A DNA stretch of 64,000 nucleotides from an uncultured Bryobacteraceae bacterium (lineage in GTDB: Bacteria; Acidobacteriota; Terriglobia; Bryobacterales; Bryobacteraceae). The translations under genes were made by a program, and so were the position numbers. The first letter of the stretch is position 1. The number at the start of each line of letters is the position of its first letter. This document shows, one piece after another, positions 4,484-61,355 of the stretch. Below the pieces are notes generated by a model. That model worked only from the letters and a program-made list of their open reading frames with translations. It was not told where the DNA came from and did not search any database. The stretch lies in the NCBI GenBank assembly GCA_938003835.1, contig CALKXJ010000014.1, positions 1-64,000 of the forward strand. The letters run 5' to 3'.

Positions 4484-6922
4484 CTAAAACTGCCACCGCA
4501 AGCCGAACTGCACCAGGCGCGGATGGGAGGGCAGAATGCCCCGCGTGCGGTCGACAATCACCAGCCGGTCGGTCAGGTTTTTCACCGTGAGAAAGAGCGT
4601 CGCCCGCAGCGATTCGAGCGGATGGTTGATCGTGGCGTTCCAGAGCACATTCCCCGGAATCAGGCCGCGCTGGCCGTTGGGCGTGGGCGCGACGGTGTTG
4701 AGGTCGTCGCCGAACTGCCGCGAGGTGGCCACCGCCTCAATCAGCGCGCTCGTGCCGCGGGCGTGTACGTACCCGAGCGAGGCGTTGCCCAACTGGGAGG
4801 GCGCGTAAGGAAGCCGGTTCCCCCGCACCGAGACGTGCGCGAAACCCGGTACGGAACTGTATCGGGTCCCGGCAAAGCGCGCCACGGGCAGCCAGGTATA
4901 CGCCGCGCGGACCGAAAAGGTGTGCCGCGGCCCGAACCAAGGCGGCAACTGCCACCGACCCGCCGCCTCGACTCCCTGATGCTCGGTGCGGCCCGCGCTG
5001 GTGAGCGTCGCGCCCACGCCGCCAGCGACGCTCGCCGGAATGATCTGGTTCTGGTAATCCATGCGAAAGGCCGTGACCTCGAGCGCCAGGCGCGGCGCCG
5101 CCCGCAGGCGCAGCCCGAGCTCGTAGTTCCAGCTCAGTTCCGGATCGAGGTCCACCGTGCCGCCCAGATTGGTGATGATGTCCTCGGCGCGCGGCGGGGC
5201 AAAGCCGCGATGGATGCCCGCGAAAACGGTGACCCGCGACGGACTGTAAGAGAGGCCGATGCCCGGCACCCACTGCGTCAGCTCGGCCCGCCCGAACGCG
5301 CCGTTGAGCCGGTTCAGGCGCTGGTAGCGCACGTGCTCGAGGCGCACGCCCGGCGTCAAACCCCATCTGCCGCGAGCGAGCCGGTACTGCCAGAAGCCTG
5401 ACCAGGCTTGCGTGCGCCGCTTGTTGTCCTCCACCAGGCGACCATCGCGCGAGGTGGGAAGCGGGCCGTTCCTCTGTTGGCGGTCCTGATCTTCAAAATG
5501 GCCGCGCAGGCCGAAGTCAGCCTCGCCGGCGAGCGGTCCCAGCCGCTGCTGGGACCGGAAGCGGGGTTCGACCCCCCACGTGTAGTAGCTGCGCAGGCGG
5601 CCTTCGTTGCCGCAACGGGTGTCGAGATCGGCCATCCCTGTGCATCCCGGATCGCCCAGCCGGTTCGGCCGCTGCCCGGAGTGGCTCGCCTGCCGCCACC
5701 AGTCCCGGTGGAAGTAGGAGCCGTACAGGTTGGCCGTCATCGCCAGGTTCGGCTTCAAGGCTTCGGAGTAGCTTACCGAAGCGCCGAAGCGGTCGCCGTA
5801 AAAGGAATCGTTGCGGAACGGGTTCTGGCGCGGATTGGTGCGGAACTCCTCCTCGGTCAACCCCGAATAGGTGACCCTGGAGCGCTCCGCATAGTAGTTC
5901 AGGCGCCAGGTGAGCAGCCGCCGGTTGGAAAACGTCGTCGTGCTCTTCACGTAGAAGTCGGACAGGCCCAGGCGCGTATTTTCGCGCGCCCCCTCGCCCT
6001 GCTTGCGTGTCAGGTGAGCGATCAGGCCGGTGCGGCCCCAGGTGCCGCCGTAGCGGAGGTGACCGTTGAGGTAATCCCGGTTGCCGCCGGTAAGCTCCAC
6101 CTCACCGGCCCTCCGGTCGGGGATAGCCGGGGTCAGATAATTAATGACGCCGCCGACGGTGGACGGCCCATAGAGCACCTGGCCGGCGCCCTTGACCACC
6201 TCGATGCTTTCAAAGCGCTCGATCGGCGGATGGTAGTAGCTGGCGTTGTCGCCGTAGGGCGCATAGGCGAGCGGGATGCCGTCCTCGAGCAGGAGCACCT
6301 TTCTCGAGCGCGTGGGGTCAACGCCGCGGATGCCGATGTTCGGCCGCAGGGAGAAGCCCTCCTCGCCGCGGGCGAACACCCCGGGCAACTTCCGCAGCGC
6401 TTCGTCAGTCGTGAAACAGTGCGCGCCCCGCAGCGTGGCCCCGTCGAGGACGCTGAGCGACCCGGGGATCTCCTCGAAGGCAGCCGGAGAATCTGCAATC
6501 CGGTTGCCGTACACGGTGACCTGCTCGACCAGACCCGCCGGCGCAAGCACGATCTCCTCGCGGTGCCCGGCGCCCGGCGCCAGCCGCAGCAGCCGCCGGC
6601 TCTCGACAAAGCCCGGCGCCGCTGCGCGCAGCCAGTAGTCGCCCGGCCGGAGGTCGCCGAATTGGAACTCTCCGGCGGGACCGGTTCGAGTGTGGCGCTC
6701 GGCCGCGGTGGCGCGGTCTTCCAGGGCGATCGCGGCCCCGACGATCACCCCGCCGGCCGAATCGCGCACCAGGCCGCTCAACCGTGCCGGCGGCGCCTGG
6801 GCCGCGGCGAACTGCTGCAAACAGAGTGCGAAGACAGCCGCGCAGGCGGCACGGCAGAGCGGCCGAATCGGGCAAGACGTCGAATTTACGATATCGGGAC
6901 TTCGTTCTATTTTGCAAATCAT
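4484..6922 (-). CDS. FecA-like TonB-dependent receptor
   Basis: An 812-residue outer-membrane receptor. After a signal peptide (about 17-42) comes a carboxypeptidase-regulatory-like domain (about 45-130), a plug (about 140-265) and a 22-strand-type barrel ending in the aromatic C-terminus LRWQF. The plug segments RSRKVLLLEDGIPLAYAPYG and YYHPPIERFESIEVVKGAG resemble the Fe(III)-dicitrate receptor branch, so a ferric chelate is a reasonable guess, not proven. The ATG lies in the middle of a 7-1-7 inverted repeat (6913-6927), just downstream of a near-consensus promoter (6941-6968), predicting a very short leader and metal-responsive repression. No other in-frame start fits the signal peptide. 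Confidence 0.92.
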   Translation of the reverse strand: MICKIERSPDIVNSTSCPIRPLCRAACAAVFALCLQQFAAAQAPPARLSGLVRDSAGGVIVGAAIALEDRATAAERHTRTGPAGEFQFGDLRPGDYWLRAAAPGFVESRRLLRLAPGAGHREEIVLAPAGLVEQVTVYGNRIADSPAAFEEIPGSLSVLDGATLRGAHCFTTDEALRKLPGVFARGEEGFSLRPNIGIRGVDPTRSRKVLLLEDGIPLAYAPYGDNASYYHPPIERFESIEVVKGAGQVLYGPSTVGGVINYLTPAIPDRRAGEVELTGGNRDYLNGHLRYGGTWGRTGLIAHLTRKQGEGARENTRLGLSDFYVKSTTTFSNRRLLTWRLNYYAERSRVTYSGLTEEEFRTNPRQNPFRNDSFYGDRFGASVSYSEALKPNLAMTANLYGSYFHRDWWRQASHSGQRPNRLGDPGCTGMADLDTRCGNEGRLRSYYTWGVEPRFRSQQRLGPLAGEADFGLRGHFEDQDRQQRNGPLPTSRDGRLVEDNKRRTQAWSGFWQYRLARGRWGLTPGVRLEHVRYQRLNRLNGAFGRAELTQWVPGIGLSYSPSRVTVFAGIHRGFAPPRAEDIITNLGGTVDLDPELSWNYELGLRLRAAPRLALEVTAFRMDYQNQIIPASVAGGVGATLTSAGRTEHQGVEAAGRWQLPPWFGPRHTFSVRAAYTWLPVARFAGTRYSSVPGFAHVSVRGNRLPYAPSQLGNASLGYVHARGTSALIEAVATSRQFGDDLNTVAPTPNGQRGLIPGNVLWNATINHPLESLRATLFLTVKNLTDRLVIVDRTRGILPSHPRLVQFGLRWQF

Positions 6923-55979: not shown

Positions 55980-57047
55980 GTGGTTCGGAAGGGAAGTCCC
56001 GAGATTAGTATAGCGCCCGCCCGCAGGGAGGCTCTGCGCCGGCGCCTTCTCGCCTGGTACAGCCAGGCAAGGCGCGAGCTCCCCTGGCGCGCCACCAGGG
56101 ACCCCTACCGGATCTGGGTGGCCGAAATCATGCTCCAGCAGACGCGCGTCGCCGCCGTGCTGCCCTATTACGAACGCTTTCTCGAGCGCTTTCCTGATCC
56201 GGCCTCGCTCGCCGCGGCGCCGCTGGAGGAGGTTCTGGCCGCCTGGGCCGGGCTGGGCTATTATTCCCGCGCGCGGAACCTGCACCAGGCCGCCCGCCGG
56301 ATTGCCTCCGCCGGGGCCTTCCCGAGCGATTACGCCTCGCTACGGGCTCTGCCCGGCGTGGGCGCCTACACGGCCGCCGCCGTCGCGAGTATCGCCTTCG
56401 GGCTGCCCTACGCCGTCGTCGACGGCAACGTGCTGCGCGTGCTGGCCCGCCTTTCGGCCGACTCTGGCGATATCGGAGCCGCCACCACGCGCCGGCGCCT
56501 CCAGGCCGTCGCGCAGCAGCTTCTCGATCGCCGGCGGCCCGGCGAGTTCAATCAGGCCCTGATGGAGCTGGGTGCCACGGTGTGCCTGCCCAGGCGCCCC
56601 GCCTGCGCCGCGTGCCCGCTCGAGCGGCTATGCGAAGCCCGGCGGCGGGGCCATGAAACCGAACTTCCGCGGAAGCGGCGCCCCGGCGCCCCGACGCGCA
56701 TTACCAAGACCCTGCTCCTCATCGAACGCGGCGGCAGGATCCTGCTTCGCAAGCGCCACGCCGGCCGCCTAGCGGGCTTCTGGGAGTTGCCCGAAGCAGG
56801 AGAACTGCCCGGGGCACGGCTTGTGCGCCAGTGCGGCGAATTCCGCCACGCCATCACTAGCCATGACTACCGGCTGAGGGTGGTCGAGGCGGACCCGGCG
56901 CAGGTGCCCGACGGCTTTCGCTGGATCCCAAGAGCGCGCCTCCCCACGCTGCCCCTGGCGACCACGGCGAGGAAAGCCCTCGCACTCTGCGCCCACGCCG
57001 CTCAGGCTCGCACCTCGGAAAAGGTCAGCCGCCAGTCGCCTTGCTGA
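55980..57047 (+). CDS. mutY: A/G-specific adenine DNA glycosylase
   Basis: A 355-residue MutY that removes A opposite 8-oxoG. The catalytic Glu is in [14 protein letters not shown], the helix-hairpin-helix in [18 protein letters not shown], and the catalytic Asp in [11 protein letters not shown]. The iron-sulfur cluster motif C-X6-C-X2-C-X5-C is [23 protein letters not shown]-like C-terminal domain follows ([18 protein letters not shown]). GTG 55980 is the start; the 3' end overlaps the convergent heparinase-like gene by 46 bp. Confidence 0.96.
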
Positions 57048-58942
57048 GCCGGTGCCACGGCGGCGAACAGGATCCGGTAGATCCGCTCACCCCAGATCGC
57101 GCGGAGCCGCGCGTCGTCGACCTTGACCTCTTCGACGCTCGCCTCGAGCATACCCGGCTCATAACGCGCCGCCACCCGCTCGAGCAGCAGAAAGCCGGGA
57201 GCCTCTTTCCGCACCGCGCGCGGCGTAACCAGCGTGAGCCTCAGCTGGCGCGGCGGCCGCGCCATCCGGTAATGCTCCTCGAGGCGCACCTCGTTGGCCC
57301 GACGGTCAAAGACCAGCCTCCGCCGCCAGCTTTCGAGAGCCGCCTCCGGCGGGTAGGCGCCGGCAATGTCGAGGCTGAACTCGACCGCCTCTTCCGCGGC
57401 CCGGTAGCTCACCTCGCGCGCGGCGAACTTCCGTCCGGGCGCCTGCATGATGCCGTCGATGGTGGGCAGATTGTGCCAGGCCGACTGCATCGTCCAGATC
57501 TCGTAGCGTTGCGGGCTGAACGTCTTGGCGGTGTAGGTCTCGACGCCGATGTCGATGATGACCGGTTCGCCAGCGGCGTAGAGAATGAAGTTGCCGACAT
57601 CATTGTGATTGTGGCTCTCGGCGTTGTGCCCGCCCTTGGCCGCCAGATACAGACCTTCGGGCGAGCCCGTCTTGAGCCGGGCCGCCATCAGCTGAACGGC
57701 CGGCAGCCAGACGTCGCCGAGGAGCGGCTGGCCGGCCGGCGCCCCGCGCAGCTCTTCGGCGTTGAACAGCGCCGGAAGTTGCCGCCCGATATCGCCCCGC
57801 GCCGTGTAGCCCTTAAGGCCTGCGCCCGCAAAATGTGCGCCGAGCAACTGCATGCCCCGGTCGCCGATCCGCCTGCCGTAGCGGAAAACCAGGTCGCCGT
57901 CGGGGCGGATCTTCGCCGAGGCGTCGGCAAAGTTGATGAACCAGTCCTCGTAGATGTGGGCGCGCACGATGTAGCGGCCCATCTCGCGCACCAGGGGATC
58001 GGCGTAGAGATCGATGGCGCCGGCACTCGCCGAGCGCACCAGCTCCAGGCAGTCGAACAGCGAAGCGCCCGCACGGCCCCAGTAGCCGGGCCCTTCGTCG
58101 CAGCCGCCGTCTTCGGGATAGTTGTCGAGAAACCGGTCCAGGCTTTGGAGGCTCTTGTGCACCATGCGCCGGCGGCGCTCTTCGTCCGGCTCGAGAAGCA
58201 GGTTCGCCGCCAGCCAGTTCGAGTTGATCCACGGCGTCCAGTTATTGAGCGAACGGCGCGGCCCGCCGGGACCCAGGCCCATCCACCAGAAGTCCTCACG
58301 CTGCTCGCACGGGGTGAGCACGCGCCGGTCCACTTCGAGTAGGATGCGGCGGCGTAGCAGGGGCGAAAGAGCCTCAAGTTCGGCTCCGAGGAGATAGTCG
58401 GTCCAAGCAAGCAGGGCAGCGGTCTCGGCCGCGAACAGATCCACGGTCGGCTCGGCGACGTCGGGCAGCCCGGCGCCGGCCCGTTGCATGTTCAGGTGCG
58501 CGGGCGAGCCCCAGTAGCTCTCCTCCGCCGTCAGCCAAATGCCGTCGGCGATGGCGTCGAGGAACCGGCCCTTGTGCTCGGCGCACTCGGCCAGCACCAG
58601 AGCGCGGAGCTTTCCCCGGCGGCGGGCGCGCGCCGAGTCGGCCCGTGCCCGGTCGCCCGTGCGGACGAAGTCGAGGAACCAGCTTGCCGGCAGCGCCGGC
58701 CACTCCGCGGCGAGCTCGCGCTCCCCTTCGGCGATGAGGGCCTCGCGCACGTCGGCGGGCAAGCCCTCCCACCCCGCCCGGTCCGAGGCGCGCGGGTAAG
58801 GCTGCCATTCGCGGCGCGGCAGAAGGACCGCAGCCAGTCTTTCGAGCGTGTAGGTTCCGCTCAGCCGGTTGCCTGCCGCCACAGCCAGAACGGGTGCCGC
58901 CGCCGAGGTGGCAAGAAAACTTCTGCGGTCGAGCTCGGGCAT
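57002..58942 (-). CDS. Heparinase II/III-family protein, Tat-exported
   Basis: A 646-residue predicted polysaccharide lyase. A Tat signal (LDRRSFLATSAAAPVLAVAA) is followed by an alpha/alpha toroid (about 50-400) and a heparinase II/III beta-sandwich (about 420-640). The characteristic segment GGHNAESHNHNDVGNFILYA supplies the active-site His/Asn residues; YPEDGGCDEGPGYWGRAG is the toroid loop. It differs from the heparinase-like gene at 10351 by lacking the fibronectin-like N-terminus and using Tat instead of Sec. The substrate is not known. Confidence 0.92.
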   Translation of the reverse strand: MPELDRRSFLATSAAAPVLAVAAGNRLSGTYTLERLAAVLLPRREWQPYPRASDRAGWEGLPADVREALIAEGERELAAEWPALPASWFLDFVRTGDRARADSARARRRGKLRALVLAECAEHKGRFLDAIADGIWLTAEESYWGSPAHLNMQRAGAGLPDVAEPTVDLFAAETAALLAWTDYLLGAELEALSPLLRRRILLEVDRRVLTPCEQREDFWWMGLGPGGPRRSLNNWTPWINSNWLAANLLLEPDEERRRRMVHKSLQSLDRFLDNYPEDGGCDEGPGYWGRAGASLFDCLELVRSASAGAIDLYADPLVREMGRYIVRAHIYEDWFINFADASAKIRPDGDLVFRYGRRIGDRGMQLLGAHFAGAGLKGYTARGDIGRQLPALFNAEELRGAPAGQPLLGDVWLPAVQLMAARLKTGSPEGLYLAAKGGHNAESHNHNDVGNFILYAAGEPVIIDIGVETYTAKTFSPQRYEIWTMQSAWHNLPTIDGIMQAPGRKFAAREVSYRAAEEAVEFSLDIAGAYPPEAALESWRRRLVFDRRANEVRLEEHYRMARPPRQLRLTLVTPRAVRKEAPGFLLLERVAARYEPGMLEASVEEVKVDDARLRAIWGERIYRILFAAVAPAQQGDWRLTFSEVRA

Positions 58943-58984
58943 GCCTTCATCTTAGTCTCCCGGAGGCATGCCCGAGCTGCGCTC

Positions 58985-59446
58985 TCAGTCGCGAAGGGCG
59001 CTGAAGACGTAGCTTTTCTCTTTCTGCCCGGCGTGGCAGTTGAAGCAGGCGGTGGCGGCATTGGCGCCGACGGCGCGGTCGGTCTTCGAATCCCCTTTGA
59101 AACCCTCGAAACCCCAGCCGCCCGTCTGGCTGTAGCGCCTGGCGTCCCGGTGCATGACGCCCACCACCTTGCGCGGCCCCTCCACCAGCGCGTTGCCGTC
59201 GCGCACCGCCTCGAGCAGGTCGAAGACGATGACGGCCCCGTCGGCCCAGTTGCCCGTCCGGTAGCCCGCCACCGCCTTCTCGTTGGCGTAGATGTGATGG
59301 ATGCCGCCGAAGGACTCATAAAGCGGGTGGCCTTTTTCGATCACCATGCTCTTGACGTGGCGCCAGGCGCGGTAGCCCTCCGGATAGGGGACCTCGGCGG
59401 CGCCGGCCGCCAGAGCCAACAGGAGCAGCGCCAAAGGAAATCGCAT
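58985..59446 (-). CDS. Cytochrome P460-family haem protein
   Basis: A 153-residue periplasmic c-type cytochrome. ATG 59446 has GGGAGG upstream and starts a signal peptide (1-17). P460 landmarks: YRAWRHVKSMVIEKGHP, GGIHHIYANEKAVAGY, VVGVMHRDARRYSQTGGWGFEGF and the haem motif CFNCH (134-138), then YVFSALRD. Cytochromes P460 oxidise hydroxylamine or bind NO in ammonia oxidisers; in heterotrophs a role in reactive-nitrogen handling is likely but unproven. It is transcribed divergently from a MarR gene with shared operators. Confidence 0.93.
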   Translation of the reverse strand: MRFPLALLLLALAAGAAEVPYPEGYRAWRHVKSMVIEKGHPLYESFGGIHHIYANEKAVAGYRTGNWADGAVIVFDLLEAVRDGNALVEGPRKVVGVMHRDARRYSQTGGWGFEGFKGDSKTDRAVGANAATACFNCHAGQKEKSYVFSALRD

Positions 59447-59464
59447 TGGGAACCTCCCGAATTT

Positions 59465-59483
59465 TAGTATCGACACGATACTA
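59465..59483. promoter_or_regulatory. Operator palindrome on the cytochrome P460 -10 box
   Basis: TAGTATCG-ACA-CGATACTA, an 8-3-8 perfect inverted repeat. It contains the minus-strand -10 (59478-59483) and the predicted start of transcription, so binding should block the cytochrome gene. The half-site CGATACTA recurs as CGATACCA at 59520-59527. Confidence 0.75.
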
Positions 59484-59506
59484 TCGAAATCCAGCCCCCT
59501 TGTCAA
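59478..59506 (-). promoter_or_regulatory. Promoter of the cytochrome P460 gene
   Basis: Minus-strand TTGACA (59506 to 59501), 17-bp spacer, TAGTAT (59483 to 59478). The start near 59471 gives a leader of about 25 nt with GGGAGG before ATG 59446. Its -35 lies on the reverse of the marR -35. Confidence 0.7.
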
Positions 59507-59528
59507 GACCGTTTGCATTCGATACCAT
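59500..59528 (+). promoter_or_regulatory. Promoter of the marR gene
   Basis: TTGTCA (59500-59505), 17-bp spacer, TACCAT (59523-59528). The predicted start coincides with GTG 59535, so the marR message would be leaderless; indeed no ribosome site is present. The second CGATAC site overlaps this -10. Confidence 0.6.
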
Positions 59529-59530
59529 CG
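59520..59530. promoter_or_regulatory. Second operator half-site on the marR -10 box
   Basis: CGATACCATCG is a 4-3-4 inverted repeat and matches CGATACTATCG (59476-59486) at ten of eleven bases, 44 bp away or about four helical turns. Autoregulation of marR is inferred. Confidence 0.55.
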
Positions 59531-59534
59531 TCCT

Positions 59535-60077
59535 GTGACCGCTCCCCTCTGGTTCGACCTGCTCGAGCGCCTCGCCGCCGTCCTCGACGAGGAGTTGCGC
59601 CGCGCCGGCGCCTCCGCCGGCCTCAACGCCTCCCAGGTGGCCGTGCTGCGGTACCTCAGCAAGGCCAACCAGTACAGCAACACCCCCTCGGCGGTGGCCG
59701 CCTATTTCGGTCTGACCAAAGGAACCGTCTCGCAGACTCTGCTCGCGCTCACGCGCGGCGGCTGGCTGCGCCGCTCCCCGGACGCCCGCGACCGCCGCGT
59801 CGTCCGGCTGGCACTCACCCGCCGGGGCGAAGCGCTCATCCGGCGCCTCGCCGGCCGCATCGCTGCCGTCGGCGTGCCCGAGGACCTGGCGCCGCACCTG
59901 GAGCGCCTGCTCCGAAACTGGCAGCAGGCGCGGGGAGGGTTGAGCTTCGGCCTCTGCCGCAGCTGCCGCTACTTCCTCACCCTGGAGGAGGACCGTTTTC
60001 AGTGCGGCCTAACCGGCGAGCGGCTCCTGATGCCTCAGCCGCTCAAGATCTGCCGCGAGCACGCACCGGCCGCCTGA
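59535..60077 (+). CDS. MarR-family regulator with four-Cys C-terminal module
   Basis: A 180-residue regulator. The winged helix spans about 30-105 (SAVAAYFGLTKGTVSQTLL, then DARDRRVVRLALTRRG). After the dimerisation helix, residues 139-175 contain Cys141, 144, 157 and 173 in a C-X2-C-X12-C-X15-C array, which could hold zinc or an iron-sulfur cluster or form redox disulfides. It starts at GTG 59535. It diverges from cytochrome P460 with operators on both promoters, so it most likely controls both genes. Confidence 0.92.
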   Translation: MTAPLWFDLLERLAAVLDEELRRAGASAGLNASQVAVLRYLSKANQYSNTPSAVAAYFGLTKGTVSQTLLALTRGGWLRRSPDARDRRVVRLALTRRGEALIRRLAGRIAAVGVPEDLAPHLERLLRNWQQARGGLSFGLCRSCRYFLTLEEDRFQCGLTGERLLMPQPLKICREHAPAA

Positions 60078-60086
60078 GGCGCGTTC

Positions 60087-60770
60087 TCATGGCCGGCGCC
60101 GCCGGAACCGCTTGCGGAACAGAAAGGCCAGGTTATGGAAACCGTCGCGCCAGGGGTTGAGCTTGACCTCGCCCAGCCGCGACGAGTATTGAATCGAGAT
60201 CTCGGCGAAGCGCACGCGCGGGTTGCGGATCGCCTCGATCTTGATCTCCTCGGAGAAGGCCATGCCGTCGGAGATCAATTCCATGTCCTCGAGAATCGAG
60301 CGCCGGAAGACCCACATGCCCGACTGCGAGTCGCGCACCCAGCGGAAAAACAACAGCGACATGACGAGCGACAGCACCAGGTTGCCCACCTTGTGCTTGA
60401 AGCTCATGGCCTTGGGGTCGCGAACCGGGAAGCGCGAGGCGTTCAGAAAATCGACCTCCAGATGCAGGAACGCTTCGAGCAGGTAGGAGATGGCATCGAC
60501 CGGGTAGCTGTGGTCGCCGTCGAGCGTGACGATGATGTCGCCCCGCGCCTGCCGGAATCCCCGCTTGTAGCTGCGCCCGTAGCCGCGCACCTCTTCGCGG
60601 ATCACCTGGGCGCCGAAGCTCCGGGCCACCTCCGAGGTGCGGTCCGTCGAGGCATTGTCCACCACAATCACCTCGTCGACGAAGTCCGGCATCCGGCGCA
60701 GCACCTGCTCGATTCCCTGCTCCTCGTTGAGGCAGGGAATGATGACCGTGATGCTGTGCCCCTTGTACAA
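60087..60770 (-). CDS. Glycosyltransferase family 2, dolichol-phosphate-mannose-synthase-like
   Basis: A 227-residue GT-A transferase. The nucleotide-sugar site is VIIPCLNEEQGIEQVL and VIVVDNASTDRTSEVA; the metal motif is TLDGDHSYP, and the acceptor region contains FRWVRDSQSGMWVFRR. It lacks C-terminal membrane helices, unlike many polyprenyl-phosphate transferases. TTG 60770 is the only suitable start. A polyprenyl-phosphate acceptor is the family default, unproven here. It converges on the marR gene across 9 bp. Confidence 0.9.
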   Translation of the reverse strand: MYKGHSITVIIPCLNEEQGIEQVLRRMPDFVDEVIVVDNASTDRTSEVARSFGAQVIREEVRGYGRSYKRGFRQARGDIIVTLDGDHSYPVDAISYLLEAFLHLEVDFLNASRFPVRDPKAMSFKHKVGNLVLSLVMSLLFFRWVRDSQSGMWVFRRSILEDMELISDGMAFSEEIKIEAIRNPRVRFAEISIQYSSRLGEVKLNPWRDGFHNLAFLFRKRFRRRRP

Positions 60771-60827
60771 GTTGCTATTCTAGACCGTCTTTCCTGCGGA
60801 CCTGGGCGTCTATAGTGGAGAGTGGAA

Positions 60828-61355
60828 ATGCAAGGAGCAACGGGCAAGCCGATTCTCGCCGTGGCGGCGCTCATTCTGGGCGCTCTCCAGGCTGCCGAAT
60901 CTGGTCAGGTCCGCGCCGTGTATCTGCTCCCCATGGCCAACGGCTTCGACCAGTACCTGGCCCATCAACTCACCGCCCAGGGCGTCCTCCAGGTGGTCAC
61001 CGATCCGGAACGCGCCGATGCGGTGCTCACCGACCAGATCGGGCCGGCCTTTGAGCGGCGCCTCCAGGAGCTGTTTCCGCGCGAAAAGCAGACGCCCTCG
61101 GCCGGCGAGAGCGAGAAGGAAAAAGAGAGCGCCGAGGCCGCCGAAGCCCGCGCGGAATCCGACCGCCAGCGCGCCGCCGTCGGCGTCGTCTCTTCCTTCG
61201 GCCGCGGCCGAGGCAATGTTTTCCTGGTCGGCCTCGCTTCGCGCGAGGTCCTTTGGAGCCTTCACCAGCCGCCGAAAAACTTCACCCCCCGCGAACTCGA
61301 CCGGGCCGCGGCAAAGGTCGCCGCGAAACTGAAGGCGACCCTGAGCGGCAAGTAA
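60828..61355 (+). CDS. Secreted protein with charged insert, unknown function
   Basis: A 175-residue exported protein; ATG 60828 follows GGAGAG, and GTG 60822 would add two residues. Signal peptide (ILAVAALILGALQAAES), then VRAVYLLPMANGFDQYLAHQ and VVTDPERADAVLTDQIG. Residues about 85-118 are a low-complexity Glu/Ala/Lys stretch. The last part (GRGNVFLVGLASREVLWSLH) completes a beta-sheet-like pattern. The fold outline recalls periplasmic CsgG-like domains but no family is assigned. Confidence 0.75.
   Translation: MQGATGKPILAVAALILGALQAAESGQVRAVYLLPMANGFDQYLAHQLTAQGVLQVVTDPERADAVLTDQIGPAFERRLQELFPREKQTPSAGESEKEKESAEAAEARAESDRQRAAVGVVSSFGRGRGNVFLVGLASREVLWSLHQPPKNFTPRELDRAAAKVAAKLKATLSGK

Follow-up and report, generated by a model that had tools for sequence, protein, structure and literature searches.

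Closest described systems

Autoregulated divergent operons of the MarR family combine a winged-helix protein with palindromic operators over divergent promoters, and the regulator gene adjoins its target. The locus described here was found in a window of 64,000 nucleotides, the whole stretch of DNA that we analysed, taken from an uncultured Bryobacteraceae bacterium. It shares with these operons a winged-helix protein, palindromic operators on divergent promoters and a marR gene beside its target, but differs from them in a four-cysteine (Cys4) tail that has no Pfam match, in two operators placed on promoters with a single -35 block, and in a regulator mRNA that is likely to be leaderless. HucR of Deinococcus radiodurans (8ylm, 7xl9) is among the best PDB sequence matches of the window MarR protein, over residues 7-135, and that match stops short of the Cys4 tail. 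A likeness of another kind is offered by OrbS of Burkholderia cenocepacia, for which the title of the paper names an on-board iron sensor and the text uses "four cysteine" five times (PMC9023288); as described there, OrbS is a sigma factor and not a MarR protein, and its likeness to the window regulator is a functional analogy only. Among titles and abstract openings of the open-access literature, a scope that lies mostly outside subscription papers, we found no account of a window-type MarR regulator.

The gene facing marR encodes a member of the P460 family (PF16694, 113.6 bits, above the cut-off of 27) with CFNCH as its CxxCH heme site. Its closest PDB sequence match (5.1e-56) is 6hih, which is McCP-beta, the cytochrome c'-beta of Methylococcus capsulatus (Table 2 of PMC11928373). 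In that table, cytochromes c'-beta are marked by the lack of a cross-link Lys, a Phe or Arg cap and no distal carboxylate; matches to "MarR" in that paper are confined to the reference list. In our alignment to McCP-beta, counted manually, the window protein has F46 as cap, F75 at the cross-link Lys position and G96 at the carboxylate position, and these pair with Phe32, Phe61 and Gly82, respectively. The Phe found where a cross-linking Lys is expected speaks against a hydroxylamine-oxidising cytochrome P460. The P460 fold, the Phe cap, the Phe at the cross-link site and the Gly at the carboxylate position are shared with both McCP-beta and TtCP-beta (7ead), beside which the window cytochrome seems an ordinary member; the interest lies in its control region.

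Two promoters on one -35 block

The intergenic region at 59447-59534 lies between the minus-strand cytochrome gene (58985-59446) and the plus-strand MarR-family gene (59535-60077). The features of the locus are as follows.

58985..59446, minus strand: cytochrome c'-beta gene; P460 fold, CxxCH heme site, Pfam PF16694 at 9.8e-33
59465..59483, no strand: predicted operator 1, TAGTATCG-ACA-CGATACTA, an 8-3-8 palindrome over the minus -10
59478..59483, minus strand: -10 of the minus promoter, TAGTAT, from a sigma-70-like promoter scan
59499..59507, no strand: shared -35 block CTTGTCAAG, reading TTGACA on minus and TTGTCA on plus
59511..59525, no strand: predicted operator 2 core, GTTTGCATTCGATAC, with a degenerate left half
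59520..59530, no strand: 11-bp repeat CGATACCATCG noticed in the first-pass annotation, a near-copy of CGATACTATCG
59523..59528, plus strand: -10 of the plus promoter, TACCAT, from the same kind of scan
59535..60077, plus strand: marR-family regulator gene with a C-terminal Cys4 tail; GTG start, Pfam PF12802 at 4.4e-12

The first-pass annotation had read two divergent promoters on a single -35 block, and every element of that reading is in place: the minus promoter consists of TTGACA (59506-59501), 17 nt and TAGTAT (59483-59478), and the plus promoter of TTGTCA (59500-59505), 17 nt and TACCAT (59523-59528). These are the two sigma-70-like promoters found in 58500-61000, where shuffled sequences gave 0.2 +/- 0.4, and a back-to-back pair on a common TTGnCAA occurs once in the 64-kb window and in none of 40 simulated windows. 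Relatives were the best 80 of 349 found. In 25 loci where a recognised gene faces marR, window included (P460 in 11, Trx3 first in two, a 256-aa exported protein in four, protoglobin in one and DUF2024 in seven), TTGTCAA is exact in 22, the others being L019, L068 and L091. For a scan of spacer lengths we took 16 of the 18 non-DUF2024 loci (L068 and L091 omitted) and then dropped L019, which has no block, to leave 15. At spacer 17, 11 of these have a minus-strand hexamer with A2 and T6 and 13 have the plus-strand one; at the other spacers between 8 and 39 the minus-strand count is 0-3. Once the seven DUF2024 loci are counted in, the minus-strand figure for spacer 17 drops to only 12 of the 22 exact-block loci, window included. 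By manual reading, TACATT stands at spacer 18 in five of the seven DUF2024-facing loci, each of them methanotroph-type and lacking a clear operator 2. As judged from comparison of the sequences, the divergent promoter-operator layout is not a product of chance, and its conservation is the decisive support.

The GTG start of the window marR gene lies 6 nt after the plus -10, and the message had been predicted to be leaderless. Comparison supports this prediction: the start codon follows the -10, which is TACnAT in most of the promoters scored, by 6-9 nt in 24 of 26 promoters (28 loci minus the weak matches L050 and L067), so that the marR message is likely leaderless. The gap is 7 nt in L015 and 6 nt in L068, and the two exceptions, L069 (27 nt) and L088 (69 nt), both belong to the cyaY group described below. 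An additional, earlier in-frame marR start is found at 0-1 nt in L027, L041, L058 and L070. On the minus strand, the Shine-Dalgarno-like GGGAGG precedes the cytochrome ATG. A 646-aa minus-strand gene (57002-58942) begins 42 bp past the cytochrome stop and might be reached by read-through from the cytochrome promoter.

Predicted operators

Of the two repeats reported in the first-pass annotation, the 8-3-8 palindrome on the minus -10 is borne out at 59465-59483. The 11-bp near-copy on the plus -10 is also present, with CGATACCATCG at 59520-59530 lying 44 bp from CGATACTATCG at 59476-59486, but the plus site is better seen as a full, though degenerate, copy of the operator. The predicted operator is accordingly redrawn as a palindrome of 15-19 bp with the core GTATCGAnTCGATAC, which is common to the relatives and which the window matches at 13 of 14 bases in operator 1 and at 11 of 14 in operator 2. 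Both window palindromes cover -10 boxes, as a repressor would.

Within the window, these sites do not stand out by number. Perfect 8-3-8 palindromes occur five times in the 64 kb, against 0-11 in 15 first-order Markov simulations, and are thus not rare alone; matches to CGATACTATCG with up to two mismatches are not enriched there, at 7 against an expected 8.6. Their conservation is informative. With the window palindrome as query and up to three mismatches, we found 35 matches within 150 bp upstream of marR, distributed over 22 of the 80 relatives (best 80 of 349), and up to four mismatches raised this to 28 of the same 80; the window itself is excluded from these counts. Matches are 33-35 times as dense upstream of marR as elsewhere in the loci, though the remainder includes further operators, and among 40 permuted-palindrome controls 30 match no locus and the highest matches 14 loci. 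In several Nitrospinota and methanotroph loci the core is GTTTCGAnTCGAAAC, in which both arms are altered together and the palindrome is kept, a joint change that dimer binding would demand. Both the palindromic form and the conservation of each arm suggest that a MarR dimer binds the operator, and the comparison supports the earlier proposal of one operator per promoter with MarR as the likely binder.

The MarR protein and its Cys4 tail

The plus-gene product matches PF12802 at 46.4 bits (cut-off 27) and PF01047 at 31.8 bits (cut-off 24.6). Both families match, at E up to 0.1, all 33 members of an alignment made from the window protein and 32 of the 80 relative loci (Pfam families matching other aligned members: 25 of 58 listed). 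The AlphaFold2 model of the window protein has a mean pLDDT of 89.7, and nearly all of the 50 Foldseek matches listed for it are titled MarR-type regulators. The peptide TKGTVSQT is present in 80 of 80 relatives (best 80 of 349), a biased count since this peptide served as search query.

The tail carries four cysteines, C141, C144, C157 and C173, which are invariant in the 33-member alignment, and the C-x2-C...C...C pattern is found in all 80 relatives (best 80 of 349). In a Pfam scan of the window protein no match reaches the tail. AlphaFold2 confidence remains high there, with block means of 84-92 from residue 141 onward, and in the model the second and third tail cysteines flank a beta hairpin. 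This predicted hairpin and the arrangement of the cysteines would fit a small metal-binding module, and we infer that the tail is a metal or Fe-S thiolate sensor. More distant MarR-type matches in nearby genomes have a similar C-terminal four-Cys pattern, the tail being of the CxxC-YF...HHC...C kind in L105, L107, L120 and L122 and similar in L123; Cys4-tailed MarR proteins thus extend past the window's subfamily.

Proposed mode of control

The most likely reading of the locus, and one that we consider well founded, is an autoregulated divergent switch in which MarR would act as a repressor with one dimer at each promoter. The recount with the DUF2024 loci leaves our confidence unchanged, because the core claim rests on the operators. 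A MarR dimer, whose cysteine-rich tail would bind metal or Fe-S, would occupy operators 1 and 2 and block RNA polymerase at the cytochrome c'-beta promoter and at marR's own promoter. Since the two promoters have a common -35 block, polymerase would be limited to one direction at any moment, even if no repressor were present. On this reading, marR would be translated from a leaderless mRNA and the cytochrome gene from one with the Shine-Dalgarno-like sequence in a short leader. The repressor would be released by a signal that the Cys4 tail senses; nitric oxide, redox or Fe-S state are guesses as to what it might be. Operator 1 is the better palindrome in the window, and therefore it may take less repressor to shut the cytochrome c'-beta gene than to shut marR. 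This order of strength is no general rule, as among 22 scored loci operator 1 is the stronger in 12, level with operator 2 in seven and the weaker in three.

A shared -35 could also serve as a toggle, with MarR at one operator shutting one promoter and steering polymerase to the other. Both promoters could hardly be occupied at once on a common -35, which speaks for such steering, as does the position of the sites: operator 1 slides between the minus -10 itself (in the window and, by manual reading, L019) and a place just downstream of it (in several relatives, for example L033, L058 and L087), and operator 2 is fixed, starting 11 nt after the -35 start in the loci scored and 10 nt in L072. 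However, in the scored promoters the marR -10 lies under operator 2, where repression fits better than activation, and we regard the toggle as improbable.

In a further rival reading, two dimers four helical turns apart would loop or pack together; the first-pass annotation had raised looping as a possibility. The window spacing of 44 bp is indeed close to four turns, but it is 47-56 bp in 21 relatives, and the 22 loci together (44 in the window; 47; 48 in three; 49; 50; 51 in two; 52; 53; 54 in three; 55 in four; 56 in four; L014, L020 and L023 left out as they are without a credible operator 1) show no clustering at whole turns; the spacing is 54 bp in L068 and 24 bp in L099. Because operator spacing varies in this way, helical phase is not kept and looping is unsupported. 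DNA as short as the operator spacing also resists looping, and we give this proposal very little credence. L099, a locus of the window's own family, has both operators but no TTGTCAA; with its 24-bp spacing, it indicates that conservation reaches further for the putative operators than for the precise arrangement of the promoters. That the palindromes serve another regulator while the window MarR acts elsewhere is highly unlikely, as the palindrome accompanies window-type MarR in five phyla and is enriched at the marR start.

The repressor reading matters in two ways. The regulator, its operator and the linked genes offer a direct means of asking what induces cytochrome c'-beta, and, the operator being conserved across phyla, sequence searches can be used to look for the regulon. 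With its conserved common -35 and likely leaderless repressor message, the locus is also a good natural case in which to study promoter competition.

Further sites in the genome and the phylum

The first-pass annotation had raised the possibility of other targets in the same genome, which our searches at up to two mismatches did not bear out: among the matches listed, the window site is the only one-mismatch match to GTATCGAnTCGATAC. When up to three mismatches were allowed, GTATCGAnTCGATAC gave 97 matches per strand and its reversed control 30, and the three two-mismatch matches all lie in long open frames (again among the matches listed). Three further near-matches, namely an exact CGATACCATCG and two one-mismatch pairs 42 or 44 bp apart, were set aside as they too lie inside long open frames, which are only moderate evidence against a site because the DNA is GC-rich. 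A search of the genome for a second copy of the regulator gave none at E <= 0.001. Across 297 genomes of the phylum, the promoter-operator pattern matches eight genomes, against two for a reversed control. Flanks were read for six of the eight loci, the others being the window and L128, whose matched letters are those of L127; only the window and L132 carry a window-type MarR, and the remaining matches, without it, resemble chance.

Linked genes and spread across bacteria

Linked genes were sought by tblastn with selected neighbour queries in the 80 relative loci (best 80 of 349, as for all counts in this paragraph). P460/c'-beta faces marR in 10 of 80. DUF2024 is found in eight, seven of them facing marR, and Trx3 in five, three of which also have P460; the 256-aa exported protein is found in four and protoglobin in one. 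A Pfam scan of two of the four 256-aa proteins (L058 and L068) gave no match at E 0.001. In five loci (L058 710-1480, L068 2005-2868, L083 755-1525, L072 and L132) the gene facing marR encodes a member of an exported-protein family marked by the motif HPDFDDTPLWDE. A small thioredoxin-like gene, which in L087 is Pfam Thioredoxin_3, adjoins the cytochrome c'-beta gene on the same strand in L033, L055 and L087, hinting that the thioredoxin-like protein and cytochrome c'-beta are a working pair.

Another group of relatives has cyaY (frataxin) directly before marR on the same strand, in 37 of the 80 loci (best 80 of 349), mostly from Thiobacillus and kin. Counting against the switch reading, an operator pair at marR is found in only two of these, L069 and L088, and 26 of the 37, these two included, have a palindrome ~1.8-2.05 kb upstream of marR. 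This distant site (for example L021 1197 and L069 1030) is a single operator-like palindrome and, where the genes were read (L021, L037 and L069), it lies between a lysine/alanine-rich histone-like gene and a gene that, from its C-terminus, we take to be lysA.

The company of gas-binding hemes, thioredoxin-like proteins and frataxin suggests that the signal may be nitric oxide, redox or Fe-S status. A wider reading can be offered tentatively, and we think it somewhat more likely to fail than to hold in full: a widespread clade of MarR repressors, with Cys4 metal or Fe-S sensors for nitric oxide, redox or Fe-S status, would act in at least five phyla on the genes of thioredoxin-like partners and of the gas-binding hemes cytochrome c'-beta and protoglobin. 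Its members would work through a conserved operator, many of them also through a switch on one -35 block with a leaderless repressor message.

In a tree of 81 sequences, whose branches are long and drew a program warning, the window groups with L019 (Acidobacteriota) and L013, and the labelled members come from Acidobacteriota, Planctomycetota, Nitrospinota, Nitrospirota and Pseudomonadota. On this tree, four changes of the P460 label are required, at least three of them by well-supported branches, and therefore target genes have been swapped or lost. Among 151 nearby genomes, 61 match the window MarR at E <= 0.001, mostly via the DNA-binding part, and the same tail is present in three of the 29 retained loci: G051 (two fragments), G081 and G023 (a C-terminal fragment). 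This rarity of close relatives in the window's own family fits horizontal spread.

A second operator pair, 46 bp apart, is found in the methanotroph-type loci L038, L079, L073, L082 and L092, with first-site starts at 4632, 4693, 3644, 3666 and 3859, respectively. It brackets a TTGAC(A/T)-17-TATAGT promoter downstream of marR, and in the loci where the genes were read (L038, L073 and L092) the genes behind this promoter encode a small membrane protein and an exported protein rich in cysteine.
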